This document shows positions 2,311-32,977 of a stretch of 32,977 nucleotides of DNA, one piece after another. Source of the DNA: Treponema sp. (GTDB lineage Bacteria; Spirochaetota; Spirochaetia; Treponematales; Breznakiellaceae); assembly GCA_009781475.1 (NCBI GenBank), contig WQYB01000023.1, positions 1 through 32,977 of the forward strand, in the 5' to 3' direction. The position numbers and the translations under genes are program-made. Each line of letters starts with the position of its first letter. Position 1 is the first letter of the stretch. The notes beneath the pieces were generated by a model, which searched no databases, was not told the origin of the DNA, and was given only the letters and a program-made list of their open reading frames with translations.

Positions 2311-2784
2311 GTGAAATATTATTACAATTACAGTAATAAATTCTGTAACCTTTTTATCATAGAAGAAAATAACACTATTCATAATGTTCGGTTTAAATTC
2401 GAAGAAAAATTATTTATTAAAAAATCAACAGAACTAAAAAAGCTACAAACTCCTTTAATAAAAGAAACAATAAAACAGCTTGATGAATATTTTAGCGGCA
2501 AGCGAAAAACATTTGATTTACCGCTTAACGCACAAGGAACGGAATTTCAAAAAAAGGTATGGCAGGTTTTAAAAGCTATTCCCTACGGACAAACATGCAG
2601 CTACGAACAAATTGCGATCAAAACAGGGAATCCAAAAGCGTGCAGGGCTGTAGGGCTTTCGAACAATAAAAACCCGATTGTTATAATAATTCCCTGTCAT
2701 CGTGTTATTGGAAAAAACGGAAAATTAACGGGTTACGCCGGCGGCTTGGAACTAAAACAAAAACTACTTGATCTTGAAAAATAA
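2311..2784 (+). CDS. ogt: Methylated-DNA-[protein]-cysteine S-methyltransferase
   Basis: A 157-residue DNA repair protein that transfers an alkyl group from O6-alkylguanine to its own cysteine. The C-terminal domain (about 76-157) is diagnostic: FQKKVWQVLKAIPYGQ, the helix-turn-helix segment SYEQIA, and the active site IPCHRVIG with the acceptor Cys129. The N-terminal half is short and divergent, as usual for Ogt/MGMT. The start is GTG; there is little Shine-Dalgarno signal. One oddity is CRAVG at 111-115, where many family members have ARAVG. It is divergent from the secreted-protein gene and convergent with the membrane-protein pair downstream. Confidence 0.93.
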   Translation: MKYYYNYSNKFCNLFIIEENNTIHNVRFKFEEKLFIKKSTELKKLQTPLIKETIKQLDEYFSGKRKTFDLPLNAQGTEFQKKVWQVLKAIPYGQTCSYEQIAIKTGNPKACRAVGLSNNKNPIVIIIPCHRVIGKNGKLTGYAGGLELKQKLLDLEK

Positions 2785-2792
2785 TTTGGAAT

Positions 2793-2940
2793 TTTATCTC
2801 GCAAAGGCGCAAAGACGCAAAGTTGTTGTCCGAATTCTTAATATAATAACTAAAAATACTTAAAGTAATACTTAGATTCCTAGTTTTAAAGCAAGATTTC
2901 GTACCTCTGCTCTGCGCCTCTGCGTCTTGGCGAGAATAAA
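2793..2940. repeat. Inverted purine-rich intergenic repeat (GCAAAGGCGC type)
   Basis: The left arm (2793-2822) contains CTCGCAAAGGCGCAAAGACG, and the right arm (2905-2940) is its imperfect reverse complement, ending TCTTGGCGAGAATAAA. About 80 bases between them hold no gene. It sits exactly between the convergent genes ogt and the 576-residue membrane protein, so it could act as a two-way terminator. It belongs to the same family as the elements near 8.1, 11.2 and 26.9-32.2 kb. Confidence 0.8.
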
Positions 2941-2953
2941 TTTCTAAATATTA

Positions 2954-8110: not shown

Positions 8111-8216
8111 TTTAAAACCACAAACCCCACGAAACCGTGCCTGCGGCACGAACACGAACCCTTACTTCGATATATTATCTTCTTTCGTGATGGTTAGTGT
8201 GGTTCGTGGTAAAAAT
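8111..8216. repeat. Inverted CCACGAA-type repeat with nested micro-hairpin, likely bidirectional terminator
   Basis: The left arm begins TTTAAAACCACAAACCCCAC (8111-8130) and the right arm, TGTGGTTCGTGGTAAAAATT (about 8198-8217), is its imperfect reverse complement. The plus strand then becomes T-rich. A perfect 6-bp hairpin, CGTGCC-TGC-GGCACG, is nested in the left arm at 8136-8150. The element separates convergent ffh and the glycan locus, so it may stop both transcripts. Confidence 0.75.
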
Positions 8217-11310: not shown

Positions 11311-11370
11311 AAGGCGCAAGACACACAAAAAATATCTTAATATTCTCTGCGTGCTCTGCGCCTTTGCGAG
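11311..11370. repeat. Compact inverted AAGGCGCAAG repeat
   Basis: AAGGCGCAAGACACACAAAA (11311-11330) is followed after a short AT-rich spacer by CTGCGTGCTCTGCGCCTTTG (about 11347-11366) and CGAG. The arms are imperfect reverse complements. It is a second, differently worded member of the same family, placed directly beside the ACCACGGAGG element. Together they fill the 191-base gap between GH3 and GH130. Confidence 0.7.
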
Positions 11371-28301: not shown

Positions 28302-28538
28302 ATGGGTATAGAGGAATTATCAAATTATATCATAATTAACAATGAAATTCGCTTCGGGAAACCTTGTATAAAAGGTACTAGAATAACAGTTGGAGATATT
28401 CTTCAATGGTTATCGGAAGGAATTTCCATTTCGGAAATATTGGACGATTATCCATTATTAAAAGAAATACATATTAAAGCGGCTTTATCTTTTGCGGCAA
28501 GACGTGAAGAAATTATAAAGGTAATAGCAGCAGCATAA
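28302..28538 (+). CDS. DUF433 antitoxin
   Basis: A 78-residue protein with the DUF433 signature: IIINNEIRFGKPCIKGTRIT, VGDILQWLSEGISISEILDD and YPLLKEIHIKAALSFAARRE. DUF433 proteins have a winged-helix-like fold and pair with DUF5615 PIN-like toxins, which normally follow directly. Here the stop is followed by the ATG of exactly such a gene, but that toxin is internally deleted (28539-28605). The antitoxin is intact and may be an orphan. The ribosome site is weak. Confidence 0.87.
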   Translation: MGIEELSNYIIINNEIRFGKPCIKGTRITVGDILQWLSEGISISEILDDYPLLKEIHIKAALSFAARREEIIKVIAAA

Positions 28539-28605
28539 ATGAAGCTATTACTCGATGCTAATATATCATATAAAAAATGAATACGGATTATTAGAAATTG
28601 TGTAA
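28539..28605 (+). pseudogene. DUF5615 PIN-like toxin remnant with internal deletion
   Basis: ATG follows the DUF433 stop with no gap and encodes MKLLLDANISYKK before TGA; this is the typical start of DUF5615 toxins, including the metal-binding Asp of LLDAN. Straight afterwards, in another frame, the bases read NEYGLLEIV and TAA, the usual C-terminal end of the same family. About 80-90 central codons are gone and the ends are joined out of frame. The toxin is therefore dead, while the antitoxin in front is complete. Confidence 0.75.
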
Positions 28606-28620
28606 AACTTTTACAGTATC

Positions 28621-28653
28621 TGTGTACTCCGTGCCTCTGTGCCTCCGCGAGAA
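28621..28653. repeat. Right-arm purine/pyrimidine repeat (CTCCGTGCCTCTGTGCC type)
   Basis: TGTGTACTCCGTGCCTCTGT followed by GCCTCCGCGAGAA is a right-arm member of the ACGGAGG family. It lies 15 bases after the deleted DUF5615 toxin. No matching left arm is visible upstream of the DUF433 gene, so the pair is incomplete. Confidence 0.7.
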
Positions 28654-28686
28654 AAATTCCAAAAATATTTTAACACGAAATTTCCT

Positions 28687-28907
28687 GCAAAAAAACCGTG
28701 CGAGTTCCACAGCCTCAGTTGTTAATACTTTTAATACTTAAATAATCTGTACAAGCATAGCAGGCTGCGTTTCAAAAAAACTTTGGAGGAATCTGACTAC
28801 GAGCCCTGCTGGCGCACGGTCTCTACGTCAGAGAATTCCAAAAATGTTTTTCTGCTCCGCTCCTGCCTTGCCTGTACAAAAATATATTTATTAAAAATAT
28901 TTAAACA
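28687..28907 (+). repeat. 221-bp direct repeat, copy 1
   Basis: This copy begins GCAAAAAAACCGTGCGAG and ends AATATTTAAACA; it recurs at 30002-30222 in the same orientation with four differences by my count. CCGTGCG near the start and CGCACGG in the middle are reverse complements. The ORFs in it are short and unconvincing. With the nearby leader sequence it fills the gene-free stretch 28606-29117. Confidence 0.9.
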
Positions 28908-29020
28908 GATGGAGATCAAGTAACGCCCCTATGCTGCTAAGCATCCGCTTCGTTGTGTGTGAAATAAATTCCGAGAATTTACTCTCGCAAAAGCGAAAAA
29001 AAGAAAAACGTTTAATTTTT

Positions 29021-29117
29021 TCCATTCTCAGTCATGCAAAACAGCATGTTCACGCCATATATAAGTATGAAAAATCTGTTTTTGCGGATTTAATTTTTAT
29101 TTTGGCGGAGGCTCTAC
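29021..29117 (+). promoter_or_regulatory. Leader cassette of the Rpn gene, copy A
   Basis: Contains TCCATTCTCAGTCATGCAAA, a CATGC-(6)-GCATG hairpin (29033-29048), CCATATATAAGTA as a likely -10 region, and a second hairpin AAATCTG/CGGATTT (29072-29091) followed by a T-rich stretch, then GGAGG eight bases before the Rpn ATG. The cassette recurs before the second Rpn gene (32186-32280) and, in its first half, before the GxxExxY gene (31031-31080). The second hairpin could act as an attenuator. Confidence 0.6.
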
Positions 29118-29987
29118 ATGGAAGCTAACAGAAATTTTAAGGACAGCGTTTTTACAACATTATTTAATGATCCTGACATCCTTCGGGAATTGTACTGTGC
29201 TCTGGAAGGTATTACACTACCTCCAGACGTACCTGTTTCCATAAACACACTGGAAAATGTGTTGTATTTGGACTTTTACAATGATATTTCTTTTGAAGTA
29301 GATGGAAAATTGATAGTACTTATTGAACATCAAAGCACTATTAACCCAAACATGGCTTTGCGTCTTTTATTCTACATAACCCGTGTACTGGAAAAGAAGA
29401 TTGAAAGCAGAACTTTATACTCCAAAAAACCTGTTTCTATTCCATACCCTGAGTTTTTTGTATTGTATAATGGTAAAGAGCCATTTCCTGACAGTGCTGT
29501 TTTTAAACTGTCAGATTTATTTATTAATCCTAAATCAATTGGATTAAATGAAAAATCATATCCCTTATTGGAATTAGAAGTTAAAGTACTTAACATCAAC
29601 GAAGGAAAGAACATTGAAATCGTAAATCGCTGTAAGAGTCTCGCAGAATACAGTGCTTTTGTAGCCAAGATACATGCTTTATGGAAAGAGTTTGGCAGCC
29701 TTGAAAAAGGAATAAAAGAAGCTATAAAATATTGTTCTAAGCATGGTATAATGAACCGGTTTCTTGAGATACATGGCTCGGAGGTTTTGAATATGATATT
29801 GGAAGAATGGAATACAGAAGATGCAATCGCTTTTGCTCGTGAAGAAGGATGGGAAGACGGTCGAGAATATGGTCAAGAAAACGAAAAACATACCATCGCC
29901 CGAAAAGCTCTAGCAAAAGGCTCTACACCAGAATTTATTCAGGAAATAACAGGACTCGATCTGGAAACCATACGACAGCTTACGTAG
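29118..29987 (+). CDS. Rpn family recombination-promoting nuclease / putative transposase
   Basis: A 289-residue protein of the PD-(D/E)XK superfamily (Rpn, transposase-31-like). The N-terminal domain has NFKDSVFTTLFNDPDILREL, then the catalytic cluster: D56 in YNDISFE, and E70-x-Q72 in VLIEHQS, the ExQ variant usual for Rpn. ALRLLFYITRVLEKKI follows. Rpn proteins of E. coli promote RecA-independent recombination and nick DNA; a true transposase activity is not shown. The C-terminal tail has charged GREYGQENE repeats, then ALAKGSTPEFIQEITGLDLE, probably a small DNA-binding or partner helix pair. The start has GGAGG in front. A near-identical second copy lies at 32281. Confidence 0.9.
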   Translation: MEANRNFKDSVFTTLFNDPDILRELYCALEGITLPPDVPVSINTLENVLYLDFYNDISFEVDGKLIVLIEHQSTINPNMALRLLFYITRVLEKKIESRTLYSKKPVSIPYPEFFVLYNGKEPFPDSAVFKLSDLFINPKSIGLNEKSYPLLELEVKVLNINEGKNIEIVNRCKSLAEYSAFVAKIHALWKEFGSLEKGIKEAIKYCSKHGIMNRFLEIHGSEVLNMILEEWNTEDAIAFAREEGWEDGREYGQENEKHTIARKALAKGSTPEFIQEITGLDLETIRQLT

Positions 29988-30001
29988 GGTGGGCGGTCAC
30001 C

Positions 30002-30222
30002 GCAAAAAAACCGTGCGAGTTCCACAGCCTCAGCTGTTAATACTTTTAATACTTAAATAATCTGTACAGGCATAGCAGGCTGCGTTTCAGAAAAACTTTG
30101 GAGGAATCTGACTACGAGCCCTGCTGGCGCACGGTCTCTACGTCAGAGAATTCCAAAAATGTTTTTCTGTTCCGCTCCTGCCTTGCCTGTACAAAAATAT
30201 ATTTATTAAAAATATTTAAACA
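30002..30222 (+). repeat. 221-bp direct repeat, copy 2
   Basis: Same orientation and nearly the same sequence as 28687-28907. It has two perfect inverted pairs: CCGTGCG (30011-30017) with CGCACGG (30128-30134), and TGTACAGGCA (30063-30072) with TGCCTGTACA (30184-30193). These pairs interleave, so they can only form together as a pseudoknot or as alternative folds. Together the copies flank the Rpn gene at 29118-29987. Confidence 0.9.
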
Positions 30223-30246
30223 ACAGATGGATATCAACCTAAAACT

Positions 30247-30274
30247 CCCGTGCCTTTGCGCCTCCGCGAGAAAC
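30247..30274. repeat. Right-arm purine/pyrimidine repeat fragment
   Basis: CCCGTGCCTTTGCGCCTCCG then CGAGAAAC resembles the right arms at 2905-2940 and 28621-28653. It is directly downstream of the 221-bp repeat, as copy 1 has such an arm directly upstream. Confidence 0.6.
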
Positions 30275-30303
30275 TCTTCTTCGCAAGCAATGTCAGTCAC
30301 CGC

Positions 30304-30338
30304 AAAAAAAATCCCGACCGCTAAAGCAGCTGGGATTT
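30304..30338 (-). terminator. Rho-independent terminator of the secreted-protein gene
   Basis: AAATCCC (30309-30315) pairs with GGGATTT (30332-30338). On the minus strand the hairpin is followed by a T-run of about eight. It lies 18 bases after the stop of the gene at 30357-30878. Confidence 0.8.
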
Positions 30339-30356
30339 AAAAACTTCTCGTTTGTA

Positions 30357-30878
30357 CTAGTTATTCTGAGTGATTGTAAATGCCGAGAAGCGAATAGTGA
30401 CAGGTCCCTGTACACCAGAGCCTGCTCGTCCGCGAGTACCAGCGCCTTCTGTGAAAACATTAAGTACATTTCTATTTGCTGCTGCGGAAGTTGCTGCTGC
30501 GGTTGTAACAAGAGTAAATTCAACGGTGTATGTCTGTCCCGTTCTTAAAAGTCCCATATTAGCGTCATTAGTAGTCCAATAAGGGCTTAATTCCCTCCAC
30601 CAGCCTGCCGCTTCTGATGGATCAAGAAGAACAAACATTAATTCATCTTCCAGATTACGACTTACAGTAAATGTCGCTTTGATAGTATACGATTGACCAG
30701 CGGCGATTTGGCGTCCATTCATAAGATTCCTAGCTGAAATTTGATTTCCATAAGAATTTCCATGTTCAAAACCATCATTCAAAACAAGGTTAAATGCGCC
30801 TAAATCTCTTGTTTGCGCAAACAACGCAGGAACCATAAAAAAGCTAAGGATCAATACGACCAATAGTACCTTTTTCAT
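30357..30878 (-). CDS. Secreted beta-rich protein of unknown function
   Basis: I chose the ATG at 30878, not the longer frame from 30941, because GGAGG lies eight bases before it and it opens a clean signal peptide (MKKVLLVVLILSFFMVPALFAQ). The 173-residue product has a mature part of alternating beta-type segments: AAGQSYTIKATFTVSRNLED, ELMFVLLDPS, QTYTVEFTLVT and GPVTIRFSAFTITQ. This resembles a single jelly-roll carbohydrate-binding-like domain, but I recognise no family. It contains an Ala-rich loop (AAATSAAANRN). It stands alone, with its own terminator, amid mobile-type genes. Confidence 0.75.
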   Translation of the reverse strand: MKKVLLVVLILSFFMVPALFAQTRDLGAFNLVLNDGFEHGNSYGNQISARNLMNGRQIAAGQSYTIKATFTVSRNLEDELMFVLLDPSEAAGWWRELSPYWTTNDANMGLLRTGQTYTVEFTLVTTAAATSAAANRNVLNVFTEGAGTRGRAGSGVQGPVTIRFSAFTITQNN

Positions 30879-30963
30879 TAAAAAACCTCCAAAAAATATT
30901 TTTCGGATAACCGATACTACTATAATACCATTGGTCGCCAAAAATTACAAACTTTTTTTAAGA

Positions 30964-31004
30964 TTTCAGTCACTTTTTTAAGACTTCTCCCGGAGGCGCA
31001 GTAA
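30964..31004. repeat. Composite repeat (CAGTCACTTTTTTAAG plus CGGAGGCGCAG)
   Basis: TTCAGTCACTTTTTTAAGAC followed by TTCTCCCGGAGGCGCAGTAA joins the GTCAC motif to a left-arm purine repeat. The same composite occurs at 32001-32035. It lies between the divergent secreted-protein and GxxExxY genes. Confidence 0.65.
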
Positions 31005-31030
31005 AATTAAGAGGAATTTTTAACCACTTT

Positions 31031-31080
31031 TTTCCATTCTCAGTCATGCAAAACAGCACTTTTGACCCATATATAAGTAC
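31031..31080 (+). promoter_or_regulatory. Leader cassette, copy B, in front of the GxxExxY gene
   Basis: TTTCCATTCTCAGTCATGCA, AAACAGCA and CCATATATAAGTA match copy A before the Rpn gene at 29118; the second half differs. Downstream is a small AACCTT/AAGGTT hairpin (31081-31097) and then an AAGGAG ribosome site. A shared promoter for different PD-(D/E)XK-fold genes is the simplest reading. Confidence 0.6.
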
Positions 31081-31122
31081 AACCTTTTTTGAAGGTTGCA
31101 TCACCTTTTTAAGGAGTATTTT

Positions 31123-31554
31123 ATGGAAAAAGAGTTCACACGGAGGCACAGAGACACGGAGGTTTTGAATATGAATGAAAATGAAATTGGTTCAATTATA
31201 GTTGATACAGCGATTGATCTTCATAAAAGACTAGGTCCCGGATTACTAGAAAGTGTTTATGAAATAATTTTTACGAAACTACTTGCAAAAAGAGGACTTC
31301 TTGTTCAACGGCAAGTTTCAATCCCAATAGAGTTTGATGGAGAATCCTTTGATGAAGGATTTAGGATTGATTTATTTGTACATGGGAAAGTTATAATTGA
31401 ATTAAAATCTGTAGAGAGAATAACGGGTATTCACAAAAAACAATTATTAACATATTTGAAATTGACTAATACAAAAGTTGGATATTTATTAAATTTTGGA
31501 GCAGAAGTAATGAAATATGGGATTTATAGAGTAATAAACGGTATTGTTGAATAG
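31123..31554 (+). CDS. GxxExxY protein (PD-(D/E)XK-type fold)
   Basis: The 143-residue form starts at ATG 31123 with AAGGAG six bases before it; a 127-residue form starts at ATG 31171 with GGAGG eight bases before it. The longer form carries FTRRHRDTEVLNM, which is simply the translated ACGGAGG repeat, so the shorter one may be the true ancestral start. The conserved part has IVDTAIDLHKRLGPG, the family motif GLLESVY (40-46), then RIDLFVHGKVIIELKS with D83 and E93-x-K95, a PD-(D/E)XK-like active site, and LLTYLKLTNTKVGYLLNFG. The family's function is not established; a nuclease role is inferred. The gene lies between inverted purine-rich repeats. Confidence 0.9.
   Translation: MEKEFTRRHRDTEVLNMNENEIGSIIVDTAIDLHKRLGPGLLESVYEIIFTKLLAKRGLLVQRQVSIPIEFDGESFDEGFRIDLFVHGKVIIELKSVERITGIHKKQLLTYLKLTNTKVGYLLNFGAEVMKYGIYRVINGIVE
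31136..31162. repeat. Left inverted arm of the GxxExxY element
   Basis: TTCACACGGAGGCACAGAGA then CACGGAGG. About 22 of its first 28 bases match the reverse complement of the arm at 31571-31610. It overlaps the 5' end of the longer GxxExxY frame, and its final GGAGG serves as a ribosome site for the shorter one. Confidence 0.8.
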
Positions 31555-31570
31555 AATTTATCTTATATAT

Positions 31571-31610
31571 TTTCTCTGTGTACTTTGTGCCTCCGTGCCC
31601 CCGTGTGAAA
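31571..31610. repeat. Right inverted arm of the GxxExxY element
   Basis: TTTCTCTGTGTACTTTGTGC then CTCCGTGCCCCCGTGTGAAA. It begins 17 bases after the GxxExxY stop and is the reverse complement of the left arm, with the outer TTCACACGG best conserved. Confidence 0.8.
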
Positions 31611-31642
31611 TTCTTTTGACGGATATTTATGTCCAAAATAAC

Positions 31643-31685
31643 CTCTCGCAGAGGCGCAAAGGCGCAGTTAAGGTGACTGTCGCCT
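31643..31685. repeat. Left-arm repeat fused to a GGTGACTGTC motif
   Basis: CTCTCGCAGAGGCGCAAAGG then CGCAGTTAAGGTGACTGTCGCC. It ends six bases before the surviving C-terminal codons of a DUF4258 toxin, so the repeat marks the truncation point. Confidence 0.7.
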
Positions 31686-31691
31686 TGTTAA

Positions 31692-31766
31692 TTTTCAATT
31701 TCTGCGATACATTATTTTCCTGACCCTAATGAATGGACAGATGATTTTAAAAAAAGGAGGTTTTAA
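31692..31766 (+). pseudogene. C-terminal stub of a DUF4258 toxin
   Basis: This open frame after a TAA at 31689-31691 encodes about 24 residues ending YFPDPNEWTDDFKKRRF and TAA. That is the normal end of DUF4258 toxins (P-D-P-x-x-W-x-D-D-F). The stop overlaps the ATG of the MqsA-like antitoxin gene (TAATG), as in intact pairs, and its Arg-Arg codons contain the antitoxin's GGAGG site. The rest of the toxin is missing and replaced by repeat sequence. Confidence 0.7.
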
Positions 31767-31999
31767 TGACGTGTTTTATGTGTAAAGGAACAGTACAAGA
31801 CGGATTTTCAACTTTTACTGCAGATATGAGCGGCTGTGTTATTATCATAAAAAATGTCCCATCCGGCATTTGCAATCAATGCGGTGAAACCTCATATAAT
31901 GATGAAGTTGCAAAACAACTTCAACAACTTATTGATAATATCGCAAAAACTAACAGCGCTGAAATTGCGGTTGTTAATTATTCAAAAAAAGCCGCTTAA
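31766..31999 (+). CDS. MqsA/YgiT-type zinc-finger antitoxin
   Basis: A 77-residue protein whose zinc site is formed by CFMCKG (Cys3 and Cys6) and CNQCGE (about 36-41). The YgiT-type linker GTVQDGFSTFTADMSGCVII lies between, and a helical C-terminal part (DEVAKQLQQLIDNIAK) follows. There is no full MqsA DNA-binding domain. A strong GGAGG precedes the start. Partners of such short antitoxins are usually DUF4258 toxins encoded upstream; only a C-terminal stub of that toxin remains here. Confidence 0.88.
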   Translation: MTCFMCKGTVQDGFSTFTADMSGCVIIIKNVPSGICNQCGETSYNDEVAKQLQQLIDNIAKTNSAEIAVVNYSKKAA

Positions 32000-32000
32000 A

Positions 32001-32107
32001 AGTGTCCGTCACTTTTTTAAGACTTCTCGCAGAGGCGCTAAGGCGCAGAGAATGGAAATCGGGGTGATAACTCCGCGATCCTTTGCGTTCTTGGCGTCTT
32101 TGCGTGA
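32001..32107. repeat. Composite inverted repeat after the MqsA-like gene
   Basis: GTGTCCGTCACTTTTTTAAG leads into left arm CTTCTCGCAGAGGCGCTAAG (32024-32043) and GCGCAGAG. The right arm, CCTTTGCGTTCTTGGCGTCT (about 32080-32099) and TTGCGTG, is its imperfect reverse complement. No gene lies inside. Confidence 0.7.
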
Positions 32108-32123
32108 ACTCTTCCTTTTTTTA

Positions 32124-32170
32124 AGACCTCTCACGGAGGCGTCGAACCTTCGGTTCGCGGGGCGCAGAGA
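32124..32170. repeat. Left-arm repeat interrupted by a perfect micro-hairpin
   Basis: GACCTCTCACGGAGGC and GGCGCAGAG are separated by an insert containing CGAACC-TTC-GGTTCG (32143-32157), a perfect 6-bp hairpin. The arrangement parallels the nested hairpin at 8136-8150. Confidence 0.7.
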
Positions 32171-32185
32171 AATTTTAATTATTTT

Positions 32186-32280
32186 TCGTTTTCAATCATG
32201 CGCCAGAGCATATCCGCGCCATATATAGGTATGAAAATCTGTTTTTGCGGATTTAATCTTTATTTTGGCGGAGGCTCTAC
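32186..32280 (+). promoter_or_regulatory. Leader cassette of the second Rpn gene, copy C
   Basis: CGTTTTCAATCATGCGCCAG, GCGCCATATATAGGTATG, the AAATCTG/CGGATTT hairpin, TTTATTTTGGCGGAGGCTCT and ACATG match copy A, with several changes in the first hairpin. It accounts for the last part of the gene-free stretch 32000-32280. Confidence 0.6.
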
Positions 32281-32977
32281 ATGGATGCTAACAGAAATTT
32301 TAAGGACAGCGTTTTTACAACATTATTTAACGATCCTGACATCCTTCGGGAATTGTACTGCGCTCTGGAAGGTATTACACTACCTCCAGATGTACCTGTT
32401 TCCATAAACACACTGGAAAATGTGCTGTATTTGGATTTTTACAATGATATTTCTTTTGAAATAGATGGAAAATTAATAGTACTTATTGAACATCAAAGTA
32501 CTATTAACCCTAACATGGCTTTACGTCTTTTGTTCTACATAACCAGAGTACTGGAAAAGAAGATTGAAAGCAGAACTTTATATTCCAAAAAACCTGTTTC
32601 TATTCCATACCCTGAGTTTTTTGTATTGTATAATGGTAAAGAGCCATTTCCTGACAATGCTGTTTTTAAACTGTCAGATTTATTTGAAAATCCTAAATCA
32701 ATGGGATTAAACGAAAAATCATATCCCTTATTGGAATTAGAAGTTAAAGTACTAAACATCAACGAAGGAAAGAACAATGAAATCGTAAATCGTTGTAAGA
32801 GTCTTGCAGAATATAGTGCTTTTATAGCCAAGATACATACATTCTGGAAAGAGTTTGGCAGTCTTGAAAAAGGAATAAAAGAAGCTATAAAATACTGTTC
32901 TAAACATGGTATAATGAACCGGTTTCTTGAGATACATGGCTCGGAGGTTTTGAATATGATATTGGAAGAGTGGAATA
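32281..32977 (+). CDS. Rpn family nuclease / putative transposase, second copy (3' end outside window)
   Basis: 232 codons are visible. The product matches the Rpn protein at 29118-29987 with about a dozen substitutions, for example D2 for E2, I61 for V61, N126 for S126 and E136 for I136. The catalytic residues D56, E70 and Q72 are kept. The leader, ribosome site and start codon are also duplicated. The window ends at the matching LEEWN, before the variable charged tail. There is no frame disruption in the visible part, so this copy could be functional. Confidence 0.9.
   Translation, partial: MDANRNFKDSVFTTLFNDPDILRELYCALEGITLPPDVPVSINTLENVLYLDFYNDISFEIDGKLIVLIEHQSTINPNMALRLLFYITRVLEKKIESRTLYSKKPVSIPYPEFFVLYNGKEPFPDNAVFKLSDLFENPKSMGLNEKSYPLLELEVKVLNINEGKNNEIVNRCKSLAEYSAFIAKIHTFWKEFGSLEKGIKEAIKYCSKHGIMNRFLEIHGSEVLNMILEEWN

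Follow-up and report, generated by a model that had tools for sequence, protein, structure and literature searches.

Inverted arms around GxxExxY genes point to a half-kilobase mobile cassette in Treponema and other bacteria

Close to one end of a 32,977-nt stretch of Treponema sp. DNA (contig WQYB01000023.1; this whole stretch is called the window), a short gene of the GxxExxY family stands between two inverted repeats. Do gene and repeats form one unit that moves, as a sequence-only reading of this DNA had put forward with the words "possibly a mobile element", or are they merely neighbours? The gene (31171..31554, + strand) is preceded by a left arm, a terminal inverted repeat at 31127..31162 (+ strand) made of ACGGAGG/CACAGAG units with a GGAGG at its inner end (31158-31162), and followed by a right arm at 31571..31617 (- strand), an imperfect reverse complement of the left arm. 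Over 31 nt each (31127-31157 and 31587-31617), at a spacing of 429 nt, the arms are 81% complementary, which bears out the proposed enclosure of the gene by imperfect inverted arms. Another copy of the repeat unit, with no clear partner, lies at 31645..31668 (+ strand). The motif ACGGAGG occurs six times in the window, with 1.7 occurrences expected, and six were reached in 1 of 100 shuffles. The arm pair had an alignment score of 34, and 48 of 2478 mismatched flank pairs scored as high in the same setting. Taken alone, the inverted pair at this locus is thus moderately surprising; its strength lies in its recurrence elsewhere.

The gene had been thought to start within the left arm. This was not upheld, since the ATG at 31171, just 3' of the arm, is the likelier ancestral start; it gives a protein of 127 amino acids, stands 8 nt after the GGAGG of the arm and opens an MNENEIG start that is common to the homologue at L027. 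An in-frame ATG at 31123 would extend the protein to 143 amino acids, but is less likely to be ancestral because it is part of a leader that precedes other genes elsewhere. This leader (31015..31125, + strand), with a ribosome-site-like stretch and the ATG, resembles leaders of other genes in the genome of the window (G000) and its relatives; the genes behind them are Rpn-like by eye at L308, L311 and L312 and of another kind at L309. No such gene body follows the leader in the window. To the right of the cassette, 31713..31766 (+ strand) encodes the last 17 codons and the stop codon of a truncated gene, as judged by hand translation and similarity to longer copies, and a gene for a YgiT-type zinc finger protein follows as a neighbour outside the cassette (31766..31999, + strand). 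Longer copies of the truncated gene, possibly DUF4258, precede YgiT-type genes in relatives (L303-L305), and the two genes are perhaps a broken toxin-antitoxin pair. Since the left leader has no gene body and the right gene is reduced to its last 17 codons, the window cassette seems to occupy a scar between two truncated genes. The similarity between the window element and its copy in G009 is confined to 31120-31610 of the window, and that with the copy in G008 extends from 31067 to 31617. An empty version of the window's own site was not found, and no relative had both flanks. The GxxExxY gene of the window is the only one found in the assembly of 3.29 Mb and 216 contigs. A wide scan of genome contigs led to a single locus. 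A close relative, with 72% identity, is present in a Treponema bin.

Three further features of this region were noticed. Leaders with a CCATATATA box, in the window at 31015-31125 and 29011-29107, recur before several genes in G000 and its relatives, and they resemble a common 5' module that is mobile or has been duplicated. Two almost identical Rpn-type genes lie 3 kb apart, at 29118-29987 and 32281-32977, the second ended by the contig. A separate inverted repeat without ACGGAGG units at 30039-30216 had a score of 42, compared to a shuffle maximum of 21.

The window protein matched TIGR04256 (GxxExxY) with 127.7 bits (cut-off, 35) and PF13366 (PDDEXK_3) with 128.5 bits (cut-off, 22), and these were the only families found for it. 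The proposed PD-(D/E)XK-like core, D-x9-E-x-K, could be assigned to D67, E77 and K79 (numbered from the ATG at 31171) and is conserved in 19 aligned homologues, in which twelve residues, including E27, D67, K79, Q91 and Y95, are invariant and E77 is nearly so. The order D, E-x-K, Q-x3-Y (Q91-x3-Y95) recalls, in our view, that of RecB/Cas4 nucleases. A sequence search of the PDB gave three weak rows, the best with an E value of 0.08, and a sub-threshold Cas4 chain with an E value of 0.88. From these residues, GxxExxY is probably a small RecB/Cas4-like PD-(D/E)XK nuclease, and nuclease activity may be expected of it. The dN/dS ratio was 0.02 to 0.11 in 10 of 12 pairs, values that are rough since several pairs had a dS above 1 and were saturated; because of these low ratios, the protein can be said to be under purifying selection over longer times. 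The two most recent pairs had a ratio of 0.61, which rests on 7 and 10 changes.

If the arms belong to the gene, they should flank GxxExxY genes more often than other genes. Loci were drawn from 39 genomes of the genus and 296 of the phylum; the initial loci and 60 more among the matches listed were used. The flank test covered 147 loci, including L058-L087, which were repeat-pattern matches and contributed none of the 105 gene records. In 111 of the loci the profile gave 113 matches; 106 of these were full length, 105 were left after removal of identical copies, and 99 had enough flank. The test is independent of any motif: the upstream flank was aligned with the reverse complement of the downstream flank, and crossed flank pairs were the controls. 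Own inverted arms (score of at least 30) were present at 64 of 99 full-length GxxExxY genes in Spirochaetota, compared to 78 of 2502 crossed pairs. With 330-nt flanks and a score of at least 28, the numbers were 73 of 103 genes and 119 of 2478 crossed pairs, 30 of the 103 genes being without arms at this score. Indeed, with 250-nt flanks taken from the ORF ends, arms were enriched at GxxExxY genes as had been anticipated, with 53 of 98 compared to 7 of 204 other ORFs at the same loci (Fisher p = 4e-24). A chance origin of the arms was rejected on the first and the last of these comparisons. The recurrent unit measures 512 bp (median; middle half, 475 to 652 bp) between the outer ends of the arms found. 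The arms tend to be quasi-iterated: their best periodic identity was 0.51, versus 0.39 in flank controls, and an identity of at least 0.65, at periods of 8 to 11 nt, was reached by 16% of 146 arms and 0.8% of 241 controls.

Rpn genes (PDDEXK_2/Transposase_31) also encode PD-(D/E)XK proteins and are also multi-copy in G000 (11 matches). Unlike GxxExxY genes, they rarely lie between inverted arms: in the same phylum, with 21 of 22 loci used, arms were found at 3 of 21 Rpn genes, and these arms were AT-rich. The idea that arms occur at any small nuclease gene was rejected on this count. A second control gave another picture. Genes for the four-helix-bundle family TIGR02436 (S23/IVS family) had similar arms at 9 of 20 loci, four of the nine being AT-rich (the set comprised 30 loci, of which 21 were typed and 20 of these usable). 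At the four-helix-bundle loci L183-L200 the flanking inverted arms have other sequences, for example, GTGATTAGTGAGTAGTGATTAG.

ACGGAGG had been taken as the signature of the arms, which proved too narrow, since arm sequences vary with the protein clade. Among 73 genes, arm similarity correlated with protein identity with r = 0.506 (maximum of 1000 permutations, 0.089), and when the comparison was restricted to pairs from different bacterial families, r was 0.429, a value reached by 0 of 2000 permutations. Judged by eye, as were the clade names, GPGLLESVYE-type proteins tend toward ACCACAGAGGCACAGAG-like arms, GNGFQEVIYQR-type proteins toward GTCTGAATCACGGATT-like arms, CYKIYGCIYAVN-type proteins toward ACCACGAACCACACGAAC arms and TYSIIGAAM-type proteins toward CACAGATT units. 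Genomes with two clades (G002, G010, G026, G138 and G216) have two arm types. Arms and protein have thus co-diversified. Where two proteins of one genome were at least 50% identical, an arm score of 12 was reached in only 2 of 7 pairs. We had also considered that the gene was merely dropped into older repeats, and we rejected this because both arms travel with the gene and match its clade.

Does the unit move? Two pairs of closely similar units in unrelated places define its ends. L101 and L109, from two genera, are 95.7% identical over 510 bp that end in AACAAACGGATTTGTTC and its inverted copy, and their surroundings differ. L126 and L139, from one genome, are 93.8% identical over 516 bp that end in CTGACATCTACCCACA and its inverted copy; on the left, the similarity continues for some 15 bases beyond the arm end. 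In both pairs, therefore, similarity stops at the outer ends of the arms or within about 15 bp of them. Occupied and empty sites were found as well. For the gap between hisG and hisB in genus g10, 111 of 118 genomes were matched and gave 30 loci, from which 26 genomes were readable for both genes (the one-sided loci L149, L161, L172, L175 and L177 and one duplicate row are excluded from this count). The gap was 3 to 22 bp in six genomes and 41 to 208 bp, often with other inserts, in fifteen, and it contained a GxxExxY cassette in 5 of the 26; the cassette in G311 is of another clade and has another arm type. In G429, hisG and a GxxExxY gene at a contig end make a sixth case. The cassette is present in G269 and absent in G310 and G324, whose hisG genes are 97 to 99% identical to that of G269. 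The hisG-hisB clade may be vertically inherited and sometimes lost, because four of the elements diverge from that of G269 about as much as hisG does. Furthermore, Bacteroides finegoldii has a cassette after the stop codon of radA, where Parabacteroides distasonis has 13 bp. The unit thus comes and goes at hisG-hisB and at radA, the kind of occupied and empty sites that the sequence-only reading had looked to strain comparisons for. The hisG-hisB gaps of L150, L155, L156, L157, L159, L160, L162-L164 and L166 hold another repeat, in several of them GGGGAAG...GCGGGGACACCCCGCAACGCCCC, and in some cases iterated inverted arms, for example, ATAGGGGATAGTAAATAGGGG, lie at its borders.

Direct repeats at the edges were more frequent than in crossed edges: repeats of at least 7 nt were found in 4 of 72 units and in 19 of 5112 crossed edges (p = 2e-4), and repeats of at least 4 nt in 18 of 72 and 487 of 5112, respectively. 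The clearest case is L098, in which a perfect 9-bp direct repeat, CCGGCTTTC, abuts both arms, which are of another build (GGGTGCACCGTA). Others are L122 (9 bp), L053 (8 bp) and L126 (7 bp), the last being doubtful because its left flank is common to L139. No fixed length stands out, and 54 of 72 units have no edge direct repeat of at least 4 nt. Some insertions seem to have duplicated the target, without a fixed length, and most units show nothing of the kind. Target-site duplication is not required in every family of elements with terminal inverted repeats. As in transposable elements of that type, terminal inverted repeats were found to move with the gene. Since arms are enriched at GxxExxY genes and occupied and empty sites exist, mobility is well supported at the level of the family, and GxxExxY gene and arms can be regarded as a mobile cassette of about 0.5 kb.

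If the cassette is mobile, gene-free pairs of arms could be its derivatives, and the sequence-only reading had named five such pairs of the same design in the window. The score of each was compared with those of 100 shuffled versions of its stretch, which were scanned slightly more coarsely. The pair at 2784..2949 is clear, with a score of 44 versus a shuffle maximum of 23, and is MITE-like. The others do not individually exceed their shuffles: the pair at 8117..8210, which is of the ACCACGAACC arm type and weak alone, scored 19 versus 23, the pair at 11.2 kb 19 versus 21, the repeat copy at 11340..11370 (- strand; 11.3 kb) with its weak inverted partner 23 versus 23, and the weak arm-like pair at 32019..32113 24 versus 26. 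For two more repeat copies, at 28628..28651 and 30247..30270 (both - strand), no partner was found. MITE-like derivatives were present in the relative G003, which has 276 pattern sites: 11 of 12 stretches held a gene-free pair (ten of 136 to 179 bp and one of 236 bp), a figure that is no rate, as the stretches were picked for close + and - sites. Of 20 regions collected, these 12 short stretches and the gene locus of G003 were read and 7 regions of G004 were left out. By eye, the interiors of many of the G003 pairs are alike. G000 contains 99 sites of the window's arm pattern (reversed-pattern control, 0), and here the idea of short derivatives fared less well: among 30 exact-type sites, out of 230 counted, an inward partner was found at 6, an outward partner at none, and 24 were unpaired.

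Such unpaired sites, and the ribosome-site-like GGAGG within arms, would be expected if the arms were no more than terminators or expression signals of a kind frequent between cistrons, with gene and arms forming no unit. We consider this very improbable, because paired arms are rare at other ORFs (7 of 204), because the similarity of distant copies ends at the arms and because whole units are missing at otherwise conserved sites, as at hisG-hisB and radA.

The number of repeat copies was then related to the presence of a matching gene. The window's arm type had a median of 84 copies in 8 genomes with a gene of the clade and 3 in 31 genomes without one (p = 2e-5, kinship ignored); the group of 8 was set from arms seen beforehand and includes G004, which has a gene fragment only. 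One genome, G037, has 121 copies, and a gene of the clade was not found there. The ACCACGAACC type did not repeat this pattern (copy number versus its gene, p = 0.05): it is abundant in G015 (104 copies), G001 (83) and G000 (63), in which no matching gene was found, and G002, which has the ACCACGAACC-type gene, has 7 copies, 5 of them at the gene's own locus.

The units lie in narrow gaps, with medians of 24 and 23 nt to their neighbours. Orientation was read by a simple longest-ORF rule; of 73 units, 9 were too far from their neighbours and 7 had no called neighbour. The remaining 57 comprised 35 in ++, 7 in --, 10 in +- and 5 in -+ arrangement (++ versus --, p = 1.5e-5), and hence most insertions place the cassette on the sense strand, with both neighbours running the same way. 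The unit of the window itself belongs to the five in -+ arrangement. Its arms pair with each other in the predicted RNA (z = -4.05; 0 of 100 shuffles as stable). Rfam gave 0 matches at the gathering threshold for 28400-32977 of the window.

Sense orientation in operons and pairing of the arms in the predicted RNA could also indicate an element that acts at the RNA level, like the intervening sequences (IVS) of 23S rRNA: the arms of the transcript would pair, the stem would be open to processing by RNase III, and the element would spread via RNA. Arm-flanked cassettes do contain the S23/four-helix family of intervening sequences, and a study on Coxiella describes an intervening sequence with a 28-bp terminal stem that was tested for RNase III processing (PMC4990558). 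However, any inverted repeat in DNA yields a stem in the transcript, and the fold therefore adds no evidence of its own; the unit has no second gene and hence no reverse transcriptase; of the 57 units whose neighbours were called, 22 have an arrangement other than ++; and the edge direct repeats point to insertion of DNA. An RNA-level element is, in our estimate, quite improbable.

More weight, although we still regard it as unlikely, should be given to a passive cassette. Here the arms would be moved by something else, be it a transposase of the chromosome or recombination by the host, and GxxExxY as well as the four-helix-bundle gene would be cargo, for example, for defence. Similarly built arms at 9 of 20 four-helix-bundle genes speak for cargo, as do the abundance of the ACCACGAACC type in genomes without a matching gene found, the many copies in G037 and the cases in which similar proteins of a single genome have dissimilar arms. 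With an external mobiliser one would not, however, expect arm sequence to track protein clade across families, nor G002, G010, G026, G138 and G216 to have differing arms for differing clades, and Rpn genes of the same phylum are rarely flanked, and then by AT-rich arms.

We lean towards the reading that arm, GxxExxY gene and arm are a minimal mobile cassette whose nuclease recognises and cuts the arms of its own clade, gene-free pairs being moved in trans. The arms would be the terminal inverted repeats of the cassette, often built of quasi-iterated units of 8 to 11 nt. Recognition of own-clade arms by the protein is proposed mainly because arms and protein co-diversify, and a role of GxxExxY as the enzyme that moves the repeats is plausible on the same ground. 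The protein would cut at the arms, possibly when single strands have folded; repair would then insert or copy the unit into a different intercistronic gap, in some cases with a short direct repeat as a trace. Where their ends match, gene-free arm pairs could be moved in trans. The cassette, which usually has the orientation of the host operon, would probably be transcribed by read-through, and the arms can hold ribosome sites. Against this reading stand the majority of units without an edge repeat, the 30 of 103 genes without arms at a score of 28, which 119 of 2478 crossed pairs reach, the ACCACGAACC-type and G037 copies without a gene found, the 24 of 30 unpaired sites in G000, the sharing of arms in only 2 of 7 similar same-genome pairs, the possibly vertical hisG-hisB elements and the dN/dS of 0.61 in the youngest pairs. 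Because four-helix-bundle genes often lie between inverted arms too, the data suggest either that two cassette families exist in parallel or that a mobiliser is shared; that a single external mobiliser serves both is conceivable.

How does the cassette compare with known systems? Each RAYT clade is associated with a REP type of its own. In REP/REPIN systems with a RAYT gene, a small chromosomal gene stands beside short palindrome-forming repeats that also have many gene-free copies (PMC2817692, PMC3116915). GxxExxY is similar in being a small gene with dispersed copies of its flanking repeat, 99 sites in G000. Unlike RAYT, it belongs to a PD-(D/E)XK nuclease family and is not an HUH tyrosine transposase of the TnpA_REP type, and the unit, which is also present in other phyla, travels between operon genes together with both of its arms. 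The 23S rRNA intervening sequence of Coxiella is reported to be 428 nt long, with terminal inverted repeats that close a stem around one small ORF, and such sequences are sporadically distributed and suspected of mobility (PMC4990558). The window unit also has a predicted terminal stem that closes an ORF, but it does not lie in 23S rRNA (0 Rfam matches for 28400-32977; the YgiT-type neighbour is a protein gene) and its protein belongs to PF13366 rather than to the S23 four-helix family, no TIGR02436 match having been found in G000. S23-family genes of this intervening-sequence type often have arms similar to those of GxxExxY units. The GxxExxY cassette is neither a RAYT/REPIN system nor a 23S intervening sequence, and its architecture resembles both. 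As with MITEs, the gene-free units of 136 to 236 bp in G003 share their ends with the GxxExxY cassette. IS elements are described as the main source of prokaryotic MITEs (PMC10969869); unlike MITEs derived from them, the presumed autonomous partner here is the GxxExxY cassette.

GxxExxY is a named family for which no function was found in the open-licence literature or in the database entries seen. In the open-licence texts that could be searched, which do not include subscription papers and preprints, we found no description of the pairing of GxxExxY genes with arms; the family appeared there as a neighbour-gene mention and a table entry, PDDEXK_3 was not found and PF13366 appeared in a remark on gene counts. 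If GxxExxY does act as the enzyme of such a half-kilobase element, the family would gain a function, several kinds of short intergenic repeats would have a likely source, and a PD-(D/E)XK, RecB/Cas4-like enzyme would join the known routes of DNA movement. Clade-specific arms make recognition between enzyme and arm directly testable, and the resemblance to S23 cassettes is relevant to the spread of 23S rRNA intervening sequences. Tentatively, and with less confidence than for the mechanism itself, we suggest that GxxExxY cassettes might be a separate class of autonomous mobile elements, among the smallest known, with a single RecB/Cas4-like nuclease, clade-specific and often iterated arms, sense-strand insertion into operon gaps, a range of several phyla and mobilisation of arm-only elements in trans; many of the short intergenic repeats of the ACCACAGAGG, CAGGATT, CACAGATT and CACGAACC types might then be their remnants, and the cassettes of S23 four-helix-bundle genes might form a second class with this architecture.

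A phage origin of the cassette was rejected, with 0 matches in 50,697 phage records and 2 loci in one pattern-based scan of viral contigs. Outside Spirochaetota, the flanks of a Prevotella locus did not exceed their shuffle maximum. Five of seven matches in plasmid records were examined, and 4 of the 5 loci, as well as both of the 2 viral-contig loci, had flanks above their shuffle maxima. In a Sphingomonas record the cassette lies between fabD and fabG. At L180 (Gemmatirosa), the arms are doubled into hairpins and the shared flanks are long (score, 113), as if insertions were nested.
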